Shown here one piece after another: positions 6,887 through 45,147 of a stretch of DNA of 64,000 nt. The notes under the pieces are model-generated. The model did no database searches and had not been told where the DNA came from. It saw only the letters and a program-made list of their open reading frames with translations. The DNA comes from Halobacillus karajensis (GTDB lineage: Bacteria > Bacillota > Bacilli > Bacillales > Halobacillaceae). Location: positions 930,001 through 994,000 of the forward strand of contig NZ_FNWW01000001.1 in NCBI RefSeq assembly GCF_900108515.1. Direction: 5' to 3'. A program made the translations under genes and the position numbers. Position 1 is the first letter of the stretch; each line of letters opens with the position of its first letter.

Positions 6887-8102
6887 CTGTATTCCCCCGT
6901 TCTACTTTTCGTTTTGTCATCCATCCAATCAGAGATACGAAAACTAAAAGACTTGCTGTAATCGTGAAGGTCGGAATCACTCCAATAACCGTCGCAATCC
7001 AGCCTCCAAAAAGAGGACCAATAATGGTCGCTGTCGTCATCACACTGTTGATGACCCCAAATACACGTCCAGTCATATGGACAGGAGTATGGACCTGAAT
7101 CGTTGCCTGAAAAGGAACGAAAATCAAGCTCGCAGAAAAACCTGCTGTGAAACCCATGCCCGGACCCCAGATAAGTGAATAGTTAAGATCATAATGGGTC
7201 AGTAATCCCATGACACCAAAACTGACCCCAATACCACAAACACCAAGTAACATTAGGGGGTATGGTTTGTAGTCCGTCTTTTTAGCTAAAAGAAATCCGG
7301 CTACAAACATACCGAGACCAGATCCTGTAACAAGGTATCCGAATAAATCCGGCGAGGCATCCGTCAATTCTCTGATCAGAACAATCAACTGGGAATCGGC
7401 CGATTGAAGAATCAAGAGACTGATACCGACGAGGACTAACCCCGTGATCATGAAACGGCTCGATTTAAGAAAAGAAAAGCCGGCGCTGAATTCTTGCTTA
7501 AACGAACCCTGTTCAGTGGTAGATTCCGAAGGTTCCAGACCCCCCGCGTTTGGAATGAATAATAGAATCAGAGCGGATACGAAGAACGTGGCGGAATCGA
7601 TGACAAATACCTGCTGGGCACCGAAAATGGCCACGAGAAGGCCACTGACCAGCGGTCCGAGAATTTTTGTCGAGGAATCGATCATTGATGTAATGGACAT
7701 CGCACCTTTCATATCCTCTTCAGGCACTAATTCCTTCAGTTTCCCGTTCTTTGCAGGGATGAATAATGCCGAGAAAATGCCCACCGTAAGTAAGGTCGTG
7801 TACACTATCCAAAGCGAAGTGGCGACCGTCAAAATTAAGATTAATACCGCTCTTACAACATCGGAAACAATCATCAATGTTTTCCGGTTGAAGCGGTCTG
7901 CGGCTATGCCGGCCACAGGTCCGAATAAAGCCATTGGCAGGGCTAGGCAGAGAAATACGAACGACACTTGAAGCGGGGATGCGTCCCACTTCAACCCGAC
8001 AAGGGTAATGATCGCGACGATACTAAGCCAGTCGCCAATACTTGAAATAGCCTGGGCAGACATCAGTATCATATATCCTTTATTCTTCATTAAACGTTTC
8101 AT
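6840..8102 (-). CDS. MFS transporter (drug-efflux like)
   Basis: About 420 residues with roughly 12 membrane segments. MFS motif A is visible near residues 68-75 as GIAADRFNRKT. The C-terminus is basic and cytoplasmic. I chose the ATG at 8102 (MKRLMKNKG) because GAGAGGGG lies about 8 bases before it; an in-frame TTG at 8120 would overlap that ribosome site. Pairing with a TetR gene and a twin operator suggests an inducible exporter of a toxic compound. Substrate unknown. Confidence 0.88.
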   Translation of the reverse strand: MKRLMKNKGYMILMSAQAISSIGDWLSIVAIITLVGLKWDASPLQVSFVFLCLALPMALFGPVAGIAADRFNRKTLMIVSDVVRAVLILILTVATSLWIVYTTLLTVGIFSALFIPAKNGKLKELVPEEDMKGAMSITSMIDSSTKILGPLVSGLLVAIFGAQQVFVIDSATFFVSALILLFIPNAGGLEPSESTTEQGSFKQEFSAGFSFLKSSRFMITGLVLVGISLLILQSADSQLIVLIRELTDASPDLFGYLVTGSGLGMFVAGFLLAKKTDYKPYPLMLLGVCGIGVSFGVMGLLTHYDLNYSLIWGPGMGFTAGFSASLIFVPFQATIQVHTPVHMTGRVFGVINSVMTTATIIGPLFGGWIATVIGVIPTFTITASLLVFVSLIGWMTKRKVERGNTDVSASKQGTHEATTG

Positions 8103-9774: not shown

Positions 9775-9917
9775 TTCCCTTTCATTCTCCCTATTTTTCA
9801 ATAATTTTTATCTACGTTCAGTGTATCACTATTAACAAAAAATTAAAATATTTGGCAACAGGACTTATGCGGTGAAGGCACGCGAAAGTCCTTCAAAGTC
9901 ATAGTGACCTATACAAA

Positions 9918-9961
9918 AAACACCTCTGCCTCACCCTATTCAATTAGAGACAGAGATGTTC
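9918..9961. other. Imperfect hairpin downstream of the XRE gene
   Basis: An imperfect 14-bp inverted repeat (AACACCTCTGCCTC / GAGACAGAGATGTT). It lies between mqo and the XRE regulator. It could be a weak terminator; no clear T-run follows. Nothing else is visible between 9802 and 10051. Confidence 0.3.
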
Positions 9962-10051
9962 ACTACTTTTACTAATGCCGTCACCAGCATGCGTCAAAGA
10001 GCAAGAATGGCGCTAAAGGACTTGTCACAATAGCAGCTTAAAGCTCTTTAT

Positions 10052-10501
10052 TTAACTATCTTTATATTTCCCTTTCACACATTCAATCCCGATCCCCGCC
10101 GTCACCATAATAATTAAAGGGCCGAAGTTCCAAAGAAAAGGATTCCCTAACGGAAAGTCCAAAGGGGTAAATTTGTTCAAGAAAAGGACAGCTAACTTAA
10201 AAACTAACAACAATACTCCAATAAGGAAGAAGGTATCAAAAAATGCCTTTAGTTTTGGATGCGCCAACTGCTTACTGTCTTCAATGACTTTTTCCTTCAA
10301 TTCTTCATCACTCCTCAATAATTCATCAATAGTCAGACCGAGCAGGTCACTCAAATGAATGATGATTTCAATACTCGGGAAGTTCTGGCCATTCTCCCAT
10401 TTGGAAACCGACTGTCGGCTGACGTACAGCTTTTCCGCTAGTTCCTCCTGAGACCATCCTTTGTTCTTCCGTTCTTTTTTCAATTTTTCAGCAAAATTCA
10501 T
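10052..10501 (-). CDS. XRE family regulator with C-terminal membrane segments
   Basis: About 149 residues. Residues 1-65 form a Cro/CI-type helix-turn-helix (NKGWSQEELAEKLYVSRQSVSKWENGQNFPSIE), followed by a charged linker and two hydrophobic segments (about 95-112 and 125-142), so the DNA-binding domain is probably tethered to the membrane. The ATG at 10501 has AAAGGTGA 8 bases upstream; a longer frame to 10522 has no ribosome site. It is divergent from the small membrane protein at 10732. No ligand or target can be read. Confidence 0.8.
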   Translation of the reverse strand: MNFAEKLKKERKNKGWSQEELAEKLYVSRQSVSKWENGQNFPSIEIIIHLSDLLGLTIDELLRSDEELKEKVIEDSKQLAHPKLKAFFDTFFLIGVLLLVFKLAVLFLNKFTPLDFPLGNPFLWNFGPLIIMVTAGIGIECVKGKYKDS

Positions 10502-29899: not shown

Positions 29900-30379
29900 T
29901 CACTTGTGATAAGGTTCATTCCTAATGATTTTAAAAGCGCGATACACTTGTTCGACCAGCATCAGCCTCATTAACTGGTGCGGAAACGTCATGTTTGAAA
30001 ACGACAAACCGAGATCACTCCGTTTCAGCACCTCATCACTCAATCCGAGTGAGCCTCCAATCACAAACGCAACTTTACTCTTTCCATATGTCGCGAGCTC
30101 ATCGATTTTCTTCGCGAGTTTTTCAGACGTCAGCTGTTTGCCTTTAATTTCTAGCGTGATGACATAAGTATCCTGGGAGATTTTCGAAAGAATGCGTTCG
30201 CCTTCCTTTTGTTTTACTTCAACCATTTGTGCTTCACTCAAGTTTTCCGGTGCTTTTTCATCGGGAATTTCTATGATATCGACTTTTGCGTAGGGACCGA
30301 GGCGCTTCACATATTCGGCAATGCCCTGCTTCAAATATTTCTCTTTCAACTTCCCAACACTGACAATCGTAATCTTCAT
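29900..30379 (-). CDS. rlmH: 23S rRNA (pseudouridine-1915-N3) methyltransferase RlmH
   Basis: 159 residues, a SPOUT methyltransferase that methylates pseudouridine 1915 in helix 69 of 23S r[30 protein letters not shown] at the start, [13 protein letters not shown] near 105 (SAM-binding knot) and the C-terminal RNEPYHK are all family hallmarks. In staphylococci the 3' end of this gene (orfX) is the attachment site of SCC elements; here the end is intact and no recombinase gene follows. Confidence 0.97.
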
Positions 30380-41587: not shown

Positions 41588-41640
41588 AATGAGATACTCT
41601 TTTTTATGGTCATATGTTAAAGAAAGAAAGGATCTTACCA

Positions 41641-42981
41641 TTGGAACAACTAACAAATGTATTTATAGAAATTAATAGCTTTTTATGGGGGCCAGTAATG
41701 CTTGTCTTCCTTCTCGGAACAGGTGTATGGCTCACTTTCCAGCTTCGATTCGTTCAGGTTCGTTACCTCGGCCAAGGATTCAAACAAACCTTCGCCCCGC
41801 TCTTTAAGAAAGAAAAGACAGAAGGGATTCATTCCTTCAAAGCGCTCGCCACCTCCATATCCGCGCAAGTCGGCACAGGAAACCTTGCTGGCGTCGCCAC
41901 AGCTATTGCTGCCGGCGGTCCCGGAGCCATTTTTTGGATGTGGATCAGTTCCTTCTTCGGCATGGCAACCATCTTTGCTGAAGCCGTGCTTGCTCAGCTC
42001 TATAAAGTGAAAAAAGGAGACCAAGTTCACGGGGGGCCTGCCTATTACATTCGTGATGGATTAGGAAGCAAGTGGCTCGCCGGCTTCTTCGCGGTTGCCA
42101 TCATTCTTGCCCTCGGCTTTGTCGGTAACATGGTGCAGTCGAATGCGATCACAACTGCAATGAATGAAACGGTCGGCTCTTCTTCCATCGGTATGAACTT
42201 TGGATTAGGGGTTGCCATTGCCTTTTTTATCGGCCTCATCCTTTTTGGCGGCATCCAACGAATTTCAACGTTTGCCGGTAATGTTGTCCCCATTATGGCG
42301 CTGCTTTATATCATAGGAAGCCTCGCCATTATGGTCAACTACTGGGACCAATTGGTGCCAACGGTCCAATTGATTGTCAAGGCCGCCATAAGCCCGGAAG
42401 CAGCCGGCGGTGGGGTTCTCGGTGCAACGATCAAAGAAGCCATTCGTTATGGAATTGCCCGCGGCTTATTTTCCAATGAAGCCGGTATGGGATCAACGCC
42501 TCATGCTCACGCTGTAGCTGATGTTAAACGACCTTCCCACCAAGGGCTTGTCGCCATGGTCGGTGTGTTTATCGATACCGTCATTATTTGTACGCTAACA
42601 GCCATGGTCATTTTGATCACAGATTCGCATCAGACCGGCCTAAAAGGAAGTGCGATCACCCAGGAAGGGTTCGCCCGAGGTCTTGGAGAATTCGGTACTC
42701 CTTTCATCGCCATCTGTCTATTATTCTTTGCTTTCACAACCATTCTCGGCTGGGCTTATTTCGGAGAAGTGAACGTGAGATTCTTATTCGGTCAACAGGG
42801 GGTTCCATTTTACCGGGGAATGGTCCTGCTCTTTATTGTGGCAGGATCTCTTGTACAGGTCGATTTCGTCTGGGAAATGGCCGATACCTTCAACGCACTG
42901 ATGGTTCTTCCCAACTTGATCGCCCTTCTCGCTTTAACAAAAATCATCAAGTCGACCTGGAAACAAGATAAGCTTTATTGA
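41641..42981 (+). CDS. Sodium:alanine symporter (AGCS family)
   Basis: About 446 residues and 10-11 membrane segments. AGCS signatures: FVQVRYLGQGFKQTF early, ALATSISAQVGTGNLAGVATAIAAGGPGAIFWMW, and GLFSNEAGMGSTPHAHAVADVKRPSHQG. I prefer the TTG at 41641 because AGAAAGGA is 8 bases upstream; ATG 41614 has no ribosome site. It imports alanine or glycine with sodium. Confidence 0.92.
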   Translation: MEQLTNVFIEINSFLWGPVMLVFLLGTGVWLTFQLRFVQVRYLGQGFKQTFAPLFKKEKTEGIHSFKALATSISAQVGTGNLAGVATAIAAGGPGAIFWMWISSFFGMATIFAEAVLAQLYKVKKGDQVHGGPAYYIRDGLGSKWLAGFFAVAIILALGFVGNMVQSNAITTAMNETVGSSSIGMNFGLGVAIAFFIGLILFGGIQRISTFAGNVVPIMALLYIIGSLAIMVNYWDQLVPTVQLIVKAAISPEAAGGGVLGATIKEAIRYGIARGLFSNEAGMGSTPHAHAVADVKRPSHQGLVAMVGVFIDTVIICTLTAMVILITDSHQTGLKGSAITQEGFARGLGEFGTPFIAICLLFFAFTTILGWAYFGEVNVRFLFGQQGVPFYRGMVLLFIVAGSLVQVDFVWEMADTFNALMVLPNLIALLALTKIIKSTWKQDKLY

Positions 42982-42992
42982 AGTCGGTAATG

Positions 42993-43025
42993 AAGAGATG
43001 ACCTTTAGAAGGTCATCTCTTTTTT
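42993..43025 (+). terminator. Intrinsic terminator of the symporter gene
   Basis: A 12-bp perfect stem AAGAGATGACCT / AGGTCATCTCTT with six T after it, 12 bp beyond the stop. Confidence 0.9.
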
Positions 43026-43616
43026 ATGTTCTTTTGGATACGGCGTTATTGATAGATATTATGAAAGGTCACCGGCCACCATAAACTGATGTATAAATGG
43101 AAATGTCCCAGAAAGGATATCCGTTACCTCTCTGCGTATACTTAAGGGAAGATAAAAAGAAAAAACATGTCTTTAAAAAAGAGAAAAGACCCAAAGAGAG
43201 TTGGATGAGTTTACTGACCTGATGTGTAATAGTAACATAAAGGTCTTCTATATCGGTTCCCTCATTTTCTTCGAATCGGCAACAGCCGAAGTCAGCGAAA
43301 CACCAGATTCCTTATACATAGCCAGATCCATCCTTTTTTATTATAGATACAATGTAAAAAAATATAATCGGTTGTTCGATTGCAGCCTTTGATTTTGGTG
43401 CTCCTTGTTTATTGAATATATCAAGTATCAACATTCGATTATGAGTGGCCCCGCTCTTGGCTCTTGTCCAGATTCCCTAAAACTAACCTCAAACCATTGG
43501 ACACACAGTATGTGAAACAACTCTCGAATATCGTTACAATCAGACAATTTTTTCTCTCCTCCAACAGAGCAAAAATAAGAGATAAAAAGGAAAAGACCTG
43601 TTTACATTTCTACACA
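43026..43616. other. Long intergenic stretch, no gene supported
   Basis: About 590 bp. The longest frame (43201-43392, TTG start) has no convincing ribosome site, no coding feel and no recognisable motif. The stretch leads into the DnaA-box cluster. Confidence 0.4.
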
Positions 43617-43840
43617 TGTGGAAAATAGAGACTAACGATAATAGTTACCCACAATTGTCCACAGACTTATGCACAAACCTTGTCAATTTTCTGATATTCA
43701 CAGCTCTCCCCTGAATATAAACAGGTTTTCCACAGAAATTATCCACATATACACAAACTTAAAATCTATATGGTGGCGAACATATTTTCTGCTACCATAT
43801 ATGTCACTTATCCAGATAACTATTCACACCCTGTGGATAA
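43617..43840. promoter_or_regulatory. DnaA-box cluster
   Basis: Within 224 bp I count 11 sequences at or one mismatch from TTATNCACA. Matches to that consensus: 43667 (TTATGCACA), 43739 (TTATCCACA), and 43832 (TTATCCACA on minus). One mismatch: 43617 (minus, TTTTCCACA), 43645, 43655, 43694, 43726, 43747, 43808 and 43820. No dnaA or dnaN is present, so this is a DnaA-binding cluster outside oriC as known from Bacillus subtilis, probably titrating DnaA. Confidence 0.85.
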
Positions 43841-43883
43841 CATTGAAGGCTTTTTTGTAGAACAATATCGAAAAATGTAACAT

Positions 43884-43915
43884 AAAAAGAGTATCCTTTT
43901 TGGATACTCTTTTTT
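43884..43915. terminator. Bidirectional terminator of the htrA-type gene
   Basis: AAAAGAGTATCC / GGATACTCTTTT stem with 5-base loop and A/T runs at both ends, just beyond the stop codon at 43921. Confidence 0.88.
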
Positions 43916-43920
43916 GTGGA

Positions 43921-45147
43921 TTATTCTTGTGACCCCAAGGTTAAGGTGGTTGTGTTCTTCTCCCCATCTCGATAATAGGTCACTTCCATCTCATCACCTG
44001 GATCTTTCTCATTATATAGATATTTACGTAAGTCAATAATGTCCTGCACTGGTTCTCCATCAAGAGCTGTAATAACATCTAATGGTTCGAGACCTGCTTT
44101 GGCAGCCGGAGACATTTGACGAAGACTGCGAATGTAAAGTCCGCCTTCTACCTCTTCAGGAAGGTTCAATGTATTGCTCCATTCAGATGTCGGTACTTCG
44201 TTCAGACCATATGCTTCCACCCCAATATATGGGCGATTGACCTGTCCGAATTCTTCAAGCTCGTTAATAATCGGTTTTGCTGAATCGATTGGTATAGCAA
44301 AACCAATGCCTTCTACAGAAGATTGGGCAATTTTCATTGAATTAATTCCGATCAATTGTCCTTCAATGTTGATTAGTGCTCCTCCACTATTACCAGGATT
44401 AATGGCAGCATCCGTCTGGATCACTTCCGCCTGCCAGTCATCTAACCCATCTCCATTAAAATCCTGAGGGATAGCACGTTCTTTCCCACTGATCACCCCT
44501 TGTGTAACCGAACCTGCAAAGCTTAACCCTAGAGGGTTCCCAATTGCGATGGCCGGTTCCCCTACCTTCAAATTTTCAGTAGTTCCAAGTTCAGCGACGT
44601 GCTCCACTTCGTCGGCAGGCATTTTCAAAACAGCTAAGTCTGTAAATAAATCACCGCCAACCAACTCGGCTTTAATCCGGGTTTCATCTGCCAAAACAAC
44701 CTCAATTTCACTAGCCCCTTCAATTACATGATTGTTTGTAACAACATAGGCCGTTCCATCCTCTTTCTTGTAAATGACCCCTGATCCTACACCGGCTTGC
44801 TGAGAAGAATCCCCTTCCCGCTGCCAAAAATCCTGCCGTGTCTGAAGGTTGACGACCCCTACAACAGAAGGGGTAACTTTTTCAACGACATCGGTAATTT
44901 GAGTATTCACGTCCAATTGCACTTTCTTCGTCTTATCCCCTGTCAATCCTTGGTCATCTTGGACAAGGCCGCTTTCATCTTCCGGAATAGTCATATCATA
45001 TGGAAGTAATTCTGTTTGAACCAACGCTGGTAAAGCCAGCAAAACAAGGACTGCTCCCAACACACCGCCGACGATCGTCGGCATGACCCATCGACGCCGC
45101 TGCTGCTTATGTTGACGGGTTGGTGAATGATCATCATAATAACCCAC
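43921..45147 (-). CDS. htrC: HtrA-like membrane-anchored serine protease
   Basis: 408 residues: a basic cytoplasmic tail, one membrane anchor (about 21-45), a trypsin-like domain with catalytic His140 (NNHVIEG), Asp170 (FTDLAVLKM) and Ser254 (NPGNSGGALI), and a C-terminal PDZ domain (about 300-395). GTG start at 45147 with AAGGTGA upstream. It closes the wal gene block, as yyxA/htrC does in Bacillus subtilis. It degrades or refolds misfolded exported proteins. Symbol from synteny. Confidence 0.9.
   Translation of the reverse strand: MGYYDDHSPTRQHKQQRRRWVMPTIVGGVLGAVLVLLALPALVQTELLPYDMTIPEDESGLVQDDQGLTGDKTKKVQLDVNTQITDVVEKVTPSVVGVVNLQTRQDFWQREGDSSQQAGVGSGVIYKKEDGTAYVVTNNHVIEGASEIEVVLADETRIKAELVGGDLFTDLAVLKMPADEVEHVAELGTTENLKVGEPAIAIGNPLGLSFAGSVTQGVISGKERAIPQDFNGDGLDDWQAEVIQTDAAINPGNSGGALINIEGQLIGINSMKIAQSSVEGIGFAIPIDSAKPIINELEEFGQVNRPYIGVEAYGLNEVPTSEWSNTLNLPEEVEGGLYIRSLRQMSPAAKAGLEPLDVITALDGEPVQDIIDLRKYLYNEKDPGDEMEVTYYRDGEKNTTTLTLGSQE

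Follow-up and report, generated by a model that had tools for sequence, protein, structure and literature searches.

A DnaA-box cluster with nearly fixed box spacing beside htrA of Halobacillus karajensis, orthologous by position and sequence to the yydA-region cluster of Bacillus subtilis

The stretch of DNA analysed here (64 kb, C13:930001-994000, hereafter the window) carries 12 DnaA boxes in a non-coding gap next to htrA, at positions that hardly vary between related genomes. We propose that this array is an ancient origin-proximal cluster, the orthologue of the yydA region of B. subtilis, and that it probably binds DnaA, holds it away from oriC and restrains re-initiation. A second conserved element, a dyad with tentative resemblance to NrdR operators, lies among the boxes.

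A dense array of DnaA boxes between two convergent genes

A word scan of the window returned eleven matches to TTATNCACA at 43617-43840 with at most one mismatch each, which reproduces the count given by an earlier, sequence-only reading of this DNA. Three of them are exact (43667, 43739 and 43832) and the other eight carry one mismatch. A twelfth box at 43608-43616, absent from the earlier count, was found to be kept in 19 of 20 congeners and is counted as a member of the cluster because it is conserved; a match at 43915-43923 is conserved in none of the 20. Over the whole window the scan gave 68 matches compared with 60.7 expected. The window is not enriched overall, and the box excess is therefore local: the densest 250 bp start at 43608 and contain 12 boxes. 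The count of boxes per 250 bp against the organism's own genome, which had been suggested together with the sequence-only reading, was run on sixteen 20-kb stretches (320 kb of 4.07 Mb). In this sample the background is 1.15 boxes per kb with a maximum of 3 per 250 bp, and the Poisson probability of at least 12 boxes in a given 250 bp at that density is about 5e-16. The array is intergenic and lies far above the genome background (12 vs at most 3 boxes per 250 bp), as an extra-oriC cluster is expected to do.

The cluster was mapped to C13:973617-973840 and dnaA to C13:1028985, placing the cluster 55 kb to the left of dnaA. The genes on either side, agcS and htrA, are convergent on the gap and a terminator-like hairpin stands at each gene end; the one on the htrA side was not among the hits of the terminator scan and was found by folding. 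A scan of the gap for sigma-70-type promoters gave no more matches than chance would (3 vs 3.8 expected). What lies beside the boxes is thus a pair of convergent gene ends with chance-level sigma-70-type matches, and not the promoter or gene start that a DnaA-regulated promoter would have there. In all these respects the earlier description of a cluster away from dnaA/dnaN, in a gap between a symporter gene and htrA and with no adjacent promoter that obviously needs it, proved accurate. Upstream, walK-, yycI- and htrA-like genes precede the cluster in walR order, with walJ assigned by position, and the closest named relatives of the encoded RlmH are from Halobacillus (H. litoralis, 95% identity). 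An RNA gene was also considered and rejected: with E allowed up to 5, Rfam models matched 42950-44000 seven times, each time below the gathering score, and the best of these matches by E-value, a picornavirus IRES model (0.0068), is not credible.

Box order, strand and spacing (within 1-2 bases) are kept across the 20 congeners, a few of which lack one or two outer boxes. Typical start-to-start distances between consecutive boxes are 9, 28, 10, 12, 27, 32, 13, 8, 61, 12 and 12. Identity over the 20 congeners is 94% in the box columns and 73% between boxes (96% and 73% when the stretch is delimited slightly differently), and in a shifted-mask control none of the 235 masks reached the difference between box and between-box identity (94% vs 73%). 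These data demonstrate that the boxes are under selection. Their rigidity exceeds what interchangeable sinks, or a simple sponge for DnaA, would need. Three stretches outside the main box words are also conserved in the genus, namely 43632-43650 (ACTAACG..TAGTTAC), 43680-43703 (TTGTnAATTTTCTGATATTCACAG) and 43716-43725 (TATAAACAGG); the AAACA at 43719-43723, part of the last one, is conserved order-wide and may be a weak DnaA box. All features are listed in Table 1.

Table 1. Features of the cluster and its surroundings (window coordinates).
Feature	Position	Strand	Support
AgcS-type symporter	41614-42981	+	above family cut-off
Terminator-like hairpin after symporter	42992..43022	+	terminator scan and folding
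Complete DnaA-box cluster (12 boxes at nearly fixed spacing, conserved)	43608..43840	.	density and conservation
DnaA box TTCTACACA	43608..43616	+	same column and strand in 19/20 congeners, 28/42 family loci
DnaA box TTTTCCACA, head-on to box 43608..43616	43617..43625	-	19/20 congeners, 28/42 family
DnaA box TTACCCACA	43645..43653	+	20/20 congeners, 36/42 family
DnaA box TTGTCCACA	43655..43663	+	18/20 congeners, 40/42 family
DnaA box TTATGCACA (exact)	43667..43675	+	20/20 congeners, 42/42 family
DnaA box ATATTCACA	43694..43702	+	20/20 congeners, 41/42 family; aligned order-wide
DnaA box TTTTCCACA	43726..43734	+	20/20 congeners, 40/42 family; order-wide
DnaA box TTATCCACA (exact)	43739..43747	+	19/20 congeners, 37/42 family; order-wide
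DnaA box ATATACACA	43747..43755	+	20/20 congeners, 33/42 family
NrdR-box-like 16-mer 1 AAAATCTATATGGTGG, centre 43768.5	43761..43776	.	inner half conserved, outer half weak
LexA-like core CGAAC-N4-TTTCT between NrdR-like boxes	43777..43790	.	weak: 8/10 consensus positions, read from sequence
NrdR-box-like 16-mer 2 CTACCATATATGTCAC, centre 43799.5	43792..43807	.	31 bp from 16-mer 1
DnaA box TTATCCAGA	43808..43816	+	20/20 congeners, 41/42 family
DnaA box CTATTCACA	43820..43828	+	20/20 congeners, 37/42 family; order-wide
DnaA box TTATCCACA (exact)	43832..43840	-	20/20 congeners, 42/42 family; order-wide
Terminator-like hairpin after htrA, between htrA and cluster	43885..43916	-	folded as DNA: 12-pair stem, z -8.9
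htrA, HtrA-type protease; constant cluster neighbour in family	43921..45147	-	strong matches, below the models' curated cut-offs
rlmH (yydA orthologue), 13 kb from cluster	29900..30379	-	PF02590

Orthology with the yydA region and the role of neighbouring genes

In each of the 42 family loci fetched (42 of 43 relatives; G019, whose contig ends in htrA, was left out), 8-13 boxes per 250 bp are clustered about 0.5 kb or less 3' of htrA. Across the wider order htrA is usually a direct neighbour of rlmH, with the cluster in the space that separates the two, a short way upstream of rlmH; L143 and L144, with fewer than 5 boxes per 250 bp, are among the exceptions. A genus profile built from the window and the 20 congeners also picks up the element, with its register preserved, in further families of the order; one of its matches is the rlmH upstream region of B. 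mojavensis (E 2.6e-12), where the boxes are again in register. In a class-level sample the order-level profile matches with at least 20 bits in 22 of 48 loci, 6 of the 22 being from the organism's own order. Box clusters that the profile does not match occupy the same place in some class-level loci (e.g. L291, L305, L312 and L314).

In B. subtilis, the region upstream of yydA is one of eight prominent DnaA-binding regions (PMC4447404, Table 1, region 8), and the same study reports that it binds purified DnaA at 7 sites with a Kd of 0.16 uM for ATP-DnaA. The htrA-rlmH neighbourhood of several Gram-positive bacteria is also already in print (PMC12826053). Through the rlmH upstream region of B. 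mojavensis, the cluster shares both position and sequence with this DnaA-binding cluster, B. subtilis 168 itself being represented by the literature only. Judged by position and sequence, the cluster is the orthologue of the region that DnaA binds in front of yydA (rlmH) in B. subtilis. Synteny and sequence homology with this B. subtilis-group site also uphold the sequence-only reading where it likened the array to the extra-oriC DnaA-box clusters of B. subtilis. The near-fixed box spacing, the orthology across the order and the embedded NrdR-like dyad had gone unnoticed in that reading. The present cluster and the B. subtilis one have in common the htrA/rlmH neighbourhood left of oriC and homology of sequence, the B. 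mojavensis boxes being in register. They differ in that the present cluster stays at htrA with rlmH 13 kb off and has no downstream promoter, in that it has 12 boxes vs the 7 sites reported for B. subtilis (PMC4447404), and in its NrdR-like dyad, none being mentioned in the literature consulted on that region.

Could the cluster be maintained as an operator through which DnaA controls a gene nearby, originally rlmH and, after rearrangement, threonine aldolase or others? We consider this unlikely, even though several observations point in that direction. DnaA appears to repress yyzF-yydD from the yydA region in B. subtilis (PMC4447404), and yyzF-yydABCD is listed as directly DnaA-regulated (PMC8203912). 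The cluster is just upstream of rlmH in many members of the order, often with a box at the first rlmH codons, and it abuts the threonine aldolase gene in some family members. Given the apparent repression of yyzF-yydD, a transcriptional role appears to exist in some relatives. The convergent, hairpin-ended genes and the chance-level promoter-like matches of the window do not fit such an operator, and neither do loci in which the genes have moved apart. We compared 146 distinct loci with htrA and rlmH on the stretch, after dropping those that missed htrA or rlmH, had them in another order or strand, or shared the same htrA end. The two genes lie within 1.2 kb of each other in 98 loci, of which 79 have at least 5 and 86 at least 4 boxes per 250 bp; all 12 with fewer than 4 belong to other orders. 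The remaining 48 loci have a wider separation (more than 1.2 kb). Of these, 41 carry the cluster at htrA alone (most of them from one family, in which 30 loci show both genes, and so not independent), 4 carry it at rlmH alone, 1 has it beside both genes and 2 have it beside neither. Where rlmH is elsewhere, the gene beyond the cluster varies (agcS, convergent; threonine aldolase; an M48 protease gene).

The presence of the cluster at htrA alone in 41 of the 48 separated loci indicates that its retention does not depend on the rlmH promoter, and rlmH control as the sole reason for the cluster is unsupported by the rearranged loci. Since the cluster is kept without this promoter and with varied genes beyond, transcriptional control of any one neighbour fails to explain its upkeep. 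Domibacillus sp. PGB-M46 (L170) has two clusters, one after htrA (7296-7610) and one before rlmH (9791-10095). The last alternative for the array, a chance or decaying AT-rich build-up of TTATNCACA-like words, for which the single mismatch in 8 of 11 boxes might speak, is rejected as practically out of the question by the box density, the conserved spacing, the shifted-mask test and the orthology in many genera.

Other box clusters were found in the same genome at ywlC (9 boxes per 250 bp), at gcp/ydiF (8 boxes per 250 bp) and at sda/yqeG (4 boxes, L225 2082-2181; C23:186500-191000, between a 55-aa and a 174-aa ORF), all three being cluster positions known from B. subtilis. From the likeness of the translated ORFs, we take the 55-aa product to be Sda-like and the 174-aa product to be YqeG-like, and the position to be that of B. 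subtilis sda/yqeG. A further cluster of 6 boxes, 4 of them exact, lies between argC and a putative N-monooxygenase gene (L007 2156-2240; C13:768000-773000), a position that is not among the top 20 B. subtilis regions tabulated in PMC4447404. The organism's own oriC contains up to 10 boxes per 250 bp. The present cluster resembles a bacterial oriC in this density of boxes, but it does not adjoin dnaA/dnaN, from which it is separated by the 55 kb given above, and the organism's own oriC matches the element profile only weakly (best 8.3 bits).

A conserved dyad inside the cluster

The interval flanked by boxes 43747 and 43808 contains a dyad that is conserved over 75 non-redundant homologues and invariant at several positions. 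Its consensus is roughly ATATnGTRnnnGAAYnnnnRTTCnnYACnATATATG. The 75 sequences remained after near-identical rows had been removed (115 -> 75), and homologues under 35 bits in the genus-profile search were excluded. The pattern ATATnGTR-N15-19-YACnATAT occurs at three places in the organism's own genome, i.e. in the cluster, at C15:67507 and in the promoter region of the B12-dependent ribonucleotide reductase (RNR); a reversed control pattern has one genome match as well. NrdR was considered because of the match at the RNR promoter region. The place on C15 (C15:67507-67539, L248 4008-4040) has the form ATATnGTR-N17-YACnATAT, lies 87 bp before a 491-aa ORF and may be a chance match. In L250, the minus-strand interval at about 4180-3900, which separates the NrdR boxes from the RNR large-subunit gene, holds what we presume to be a cobalamin riboswitch-like sequence. 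NrdR is encoded in the genome (TIGR00244 above cut-off, C5:11173-11613), and the ORF next to nrdR matches models of the helicase loader DnaB (E 4e-92, below their cut-offs).

An NrdR matrix independent of the cluster was derived from 24 NrdR-like box pairs of 31 RNR loci, 7 loci having been left out for want of a pair above threshold. Each pair is the best one anywhere in its RNR locus by an NrdR consensus, whatever its position relative to the gene. Pair spacings were 31 (11 pairs), 32 (10), 33 (2) and 30 (1). When scored with this matrix at spacing 31, the dyad ranks first in 60 of 75 loci, ahead of every pair on the same stretch that lies more than 60 bp from it. First ranks reach at most 31 of 75 at the other spacings from 26 to 37 (at spacing 33), and none of 300 column-permuted matrices reaches 60 (maximum 44). 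The centres of the two dyad boxes are 31 bp apart in 68 of the 75 loci. The dyad has the two-box layout of NrdR sites, 16-bp boxes with a spacer of 15-16 bp and a scan over spacings 26-37 that peaks at 31; this pair spacing is the common rule for NrdR (PMC12051234). It also beats the other pairs inside the clusters in 68 of 75 loci.

The scores themselves are low. In the window the dyad is the best spacing-31 pair of the 64 kb with only 5.3 (next 3.0), a value reached at 14 of 638,512 background pair positions. Over the 75 loci the median is 12.7 vs 30.5 at nrd loci, and 17 of the 75 reach the weakest nrd pair. Halobacillus copies, including the one studied here, have degenerate outer half-boxes and for this reason score at the weaker end; the B. 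mojavensis dyad (L223) is among the better-scoring ones (10.0 + 12.3). In a class-level repeat the dyad ranks first in 19 of 22 loci. This repeat adds less than the 75-locus test, since most of its loci are only 3.5 kb long, 18 of 22 first ranks are also obtained at spacing 33 and with at least one permuted matrix, and at least one genome, that of L283, is already among the 75 (as L238).

DnaA boxes and NrdR half-boxes share letters, and other box clusters of the genome were compared with the dyad. At spacing 31 they give high NrdR ranks in short loci (L006 rank 0 of 3639; L005 and L008 rank 1) with scores of at most 2.2, the best in-cluster values being 2.2 (oriC, L005), -2.2 (L006), -12.0 (L007) and -6.6 (L008). 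At spacing 32, a pair in L008 scores 3.9 and one in the organism's own oriC (L005 2562-2609) scores 10.0, above the 5.3 of the window dyad. One member of the oriC pair, TCACAAAATATAGTGC, is a good NrdR-like box lying amid the DnaA boxes that precede dnaA; its partner, 32 bp on, is weak.

Like nrd operators, the dyad consists of two palindromic 16-mers; their centres lie 31 bp apart with a 15-bp spacer, an arrangement also seen in front of the two RNR large-subunit genes of this genome. It differs from nrd operators in its weak outer halves, its conserved linker and its place among DnaA boxes, and it does not lie upstream of an RNR gene, the two RNR large-subunit genes found being on C8 and C23. 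On the basis of the matrix comparison, we tentatively read the central dyad (43761-43807) as a candidate weak operator for the (d)ATP-sensing repressor NrdR.

It is somewhat unlikely that the dyad is instead a LexA-like operator, or the site of another dimeric protein resembling both. The core GAAY-N4-RTTC agrees with CGAAC-N4-GTTCG, the LexA consensus as given in PMC4551915, at a mean of 7.6 of 10 positions (75 loci). The fit is best at gap 4 only, where 61% of the 75 loci fall below 1e-3, vs at most 4% at the other gaps from 0 to 8. Core and arms also have separate dyad centres, half a base pair apart (43784.5 and 43784.0), and the NrdR scores of the dyad are below those of nrd operators. 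Against a LexA-like site, the core is missing while the 31-bp NrdR-like pair is kept in the class-level loci L284, L285, L287, L288, L295-L298, L308, L310 and L321; one half-site is mostly degenerate, and GAAT is commoner than GAAC. The orientation of the core (43772-43796 in the window) is opposite among Halobacillus species, which suggests a 25-bp inversion between short inverted repeats.

A DNA hairpin or cruciform, acting as a DNA-structure signal and not as a protein operator, is a still poorer candidate and in our view improbable. The window dyad does fold as single-stranded DNA (z -4.7), and hairpin-mediated events can produce an inverted core such as that seen between congeners. It is mainly the letters that are conserved, however, with AT.T.GT and AC.A.AT nearly invariant, and covariation is seen in 6 of 50 column pairs (three registers; fewer than 10 of 1000 shuffles reach them). 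Conservation of letters beyond that of pairing favours a protein operator over a hairpin. NrdR binding itself we rate as somewhat less likely than not.

Proposed role of the cluster

Six extra-oriC clusters have been deleted in B. subtilis, and the yydA region was, we assume, one of them. Without the six, initiation comes early, and putting one cluster back corrects the timing in part, as reported in PMC5295017 and PMC13220808. Initiation control by DnaA binding would fit the present cluster best. Once the left arm has been replicated, DnaA would soon occupy the 12 ordered boxes, 55 kb from oriC; bound there, it would be kept from oriC and re-initiation would be restrained. By its description, E. 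coli datA is similar in being a non-coding DnaA-box locus outside oriC that lowers initiation. It differs in that datA needs IHF and promotes DnaA-ATP hydrolysis (PMC5295017); B. subtilis is without IHF (PMC13220808).

With lower confidence, NrdR on the central dyad could make the DnaA complex responsive to the deoxynucleotide pool. The sequence would allow a two-input switch, a possibility that we put forward with some doubt: NrdR on an order-wide operator inside the DnaA-box array would kink the DNA and couple the deoxynucleotide pool to DnaA retention, and, in part of the clade, the LexA-like core could supply an input from DNA damage.

The extra-oriC DnaA-box cluster as such is already known from B. 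subtilis. Its conserved box architecture with an embedded NrdR-like dyad was not met in the literature searched, and nothing joining NrdR to the cluster was found there by title, abstract or passage; most subscription journals were outside the scope of this search.

B. subtilis and its relatives limit re-initiation without Hda, SeqA, Dam or IHF. Their extra DnaA-box clusters have mostly been discussed as places that bind free DnaA. The near-fixed order and spacing of the boxes, together with a second conserved operator, look more like a specific complex. Since B. mojavensis, a member of the B. subtilis group, has one of the better-scoring dyads, the NrdR prediction is applicable to B. subtilis 168. 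If NrdR binds the cluster, there would be a direct route from the dATP pool to the control of initiation.
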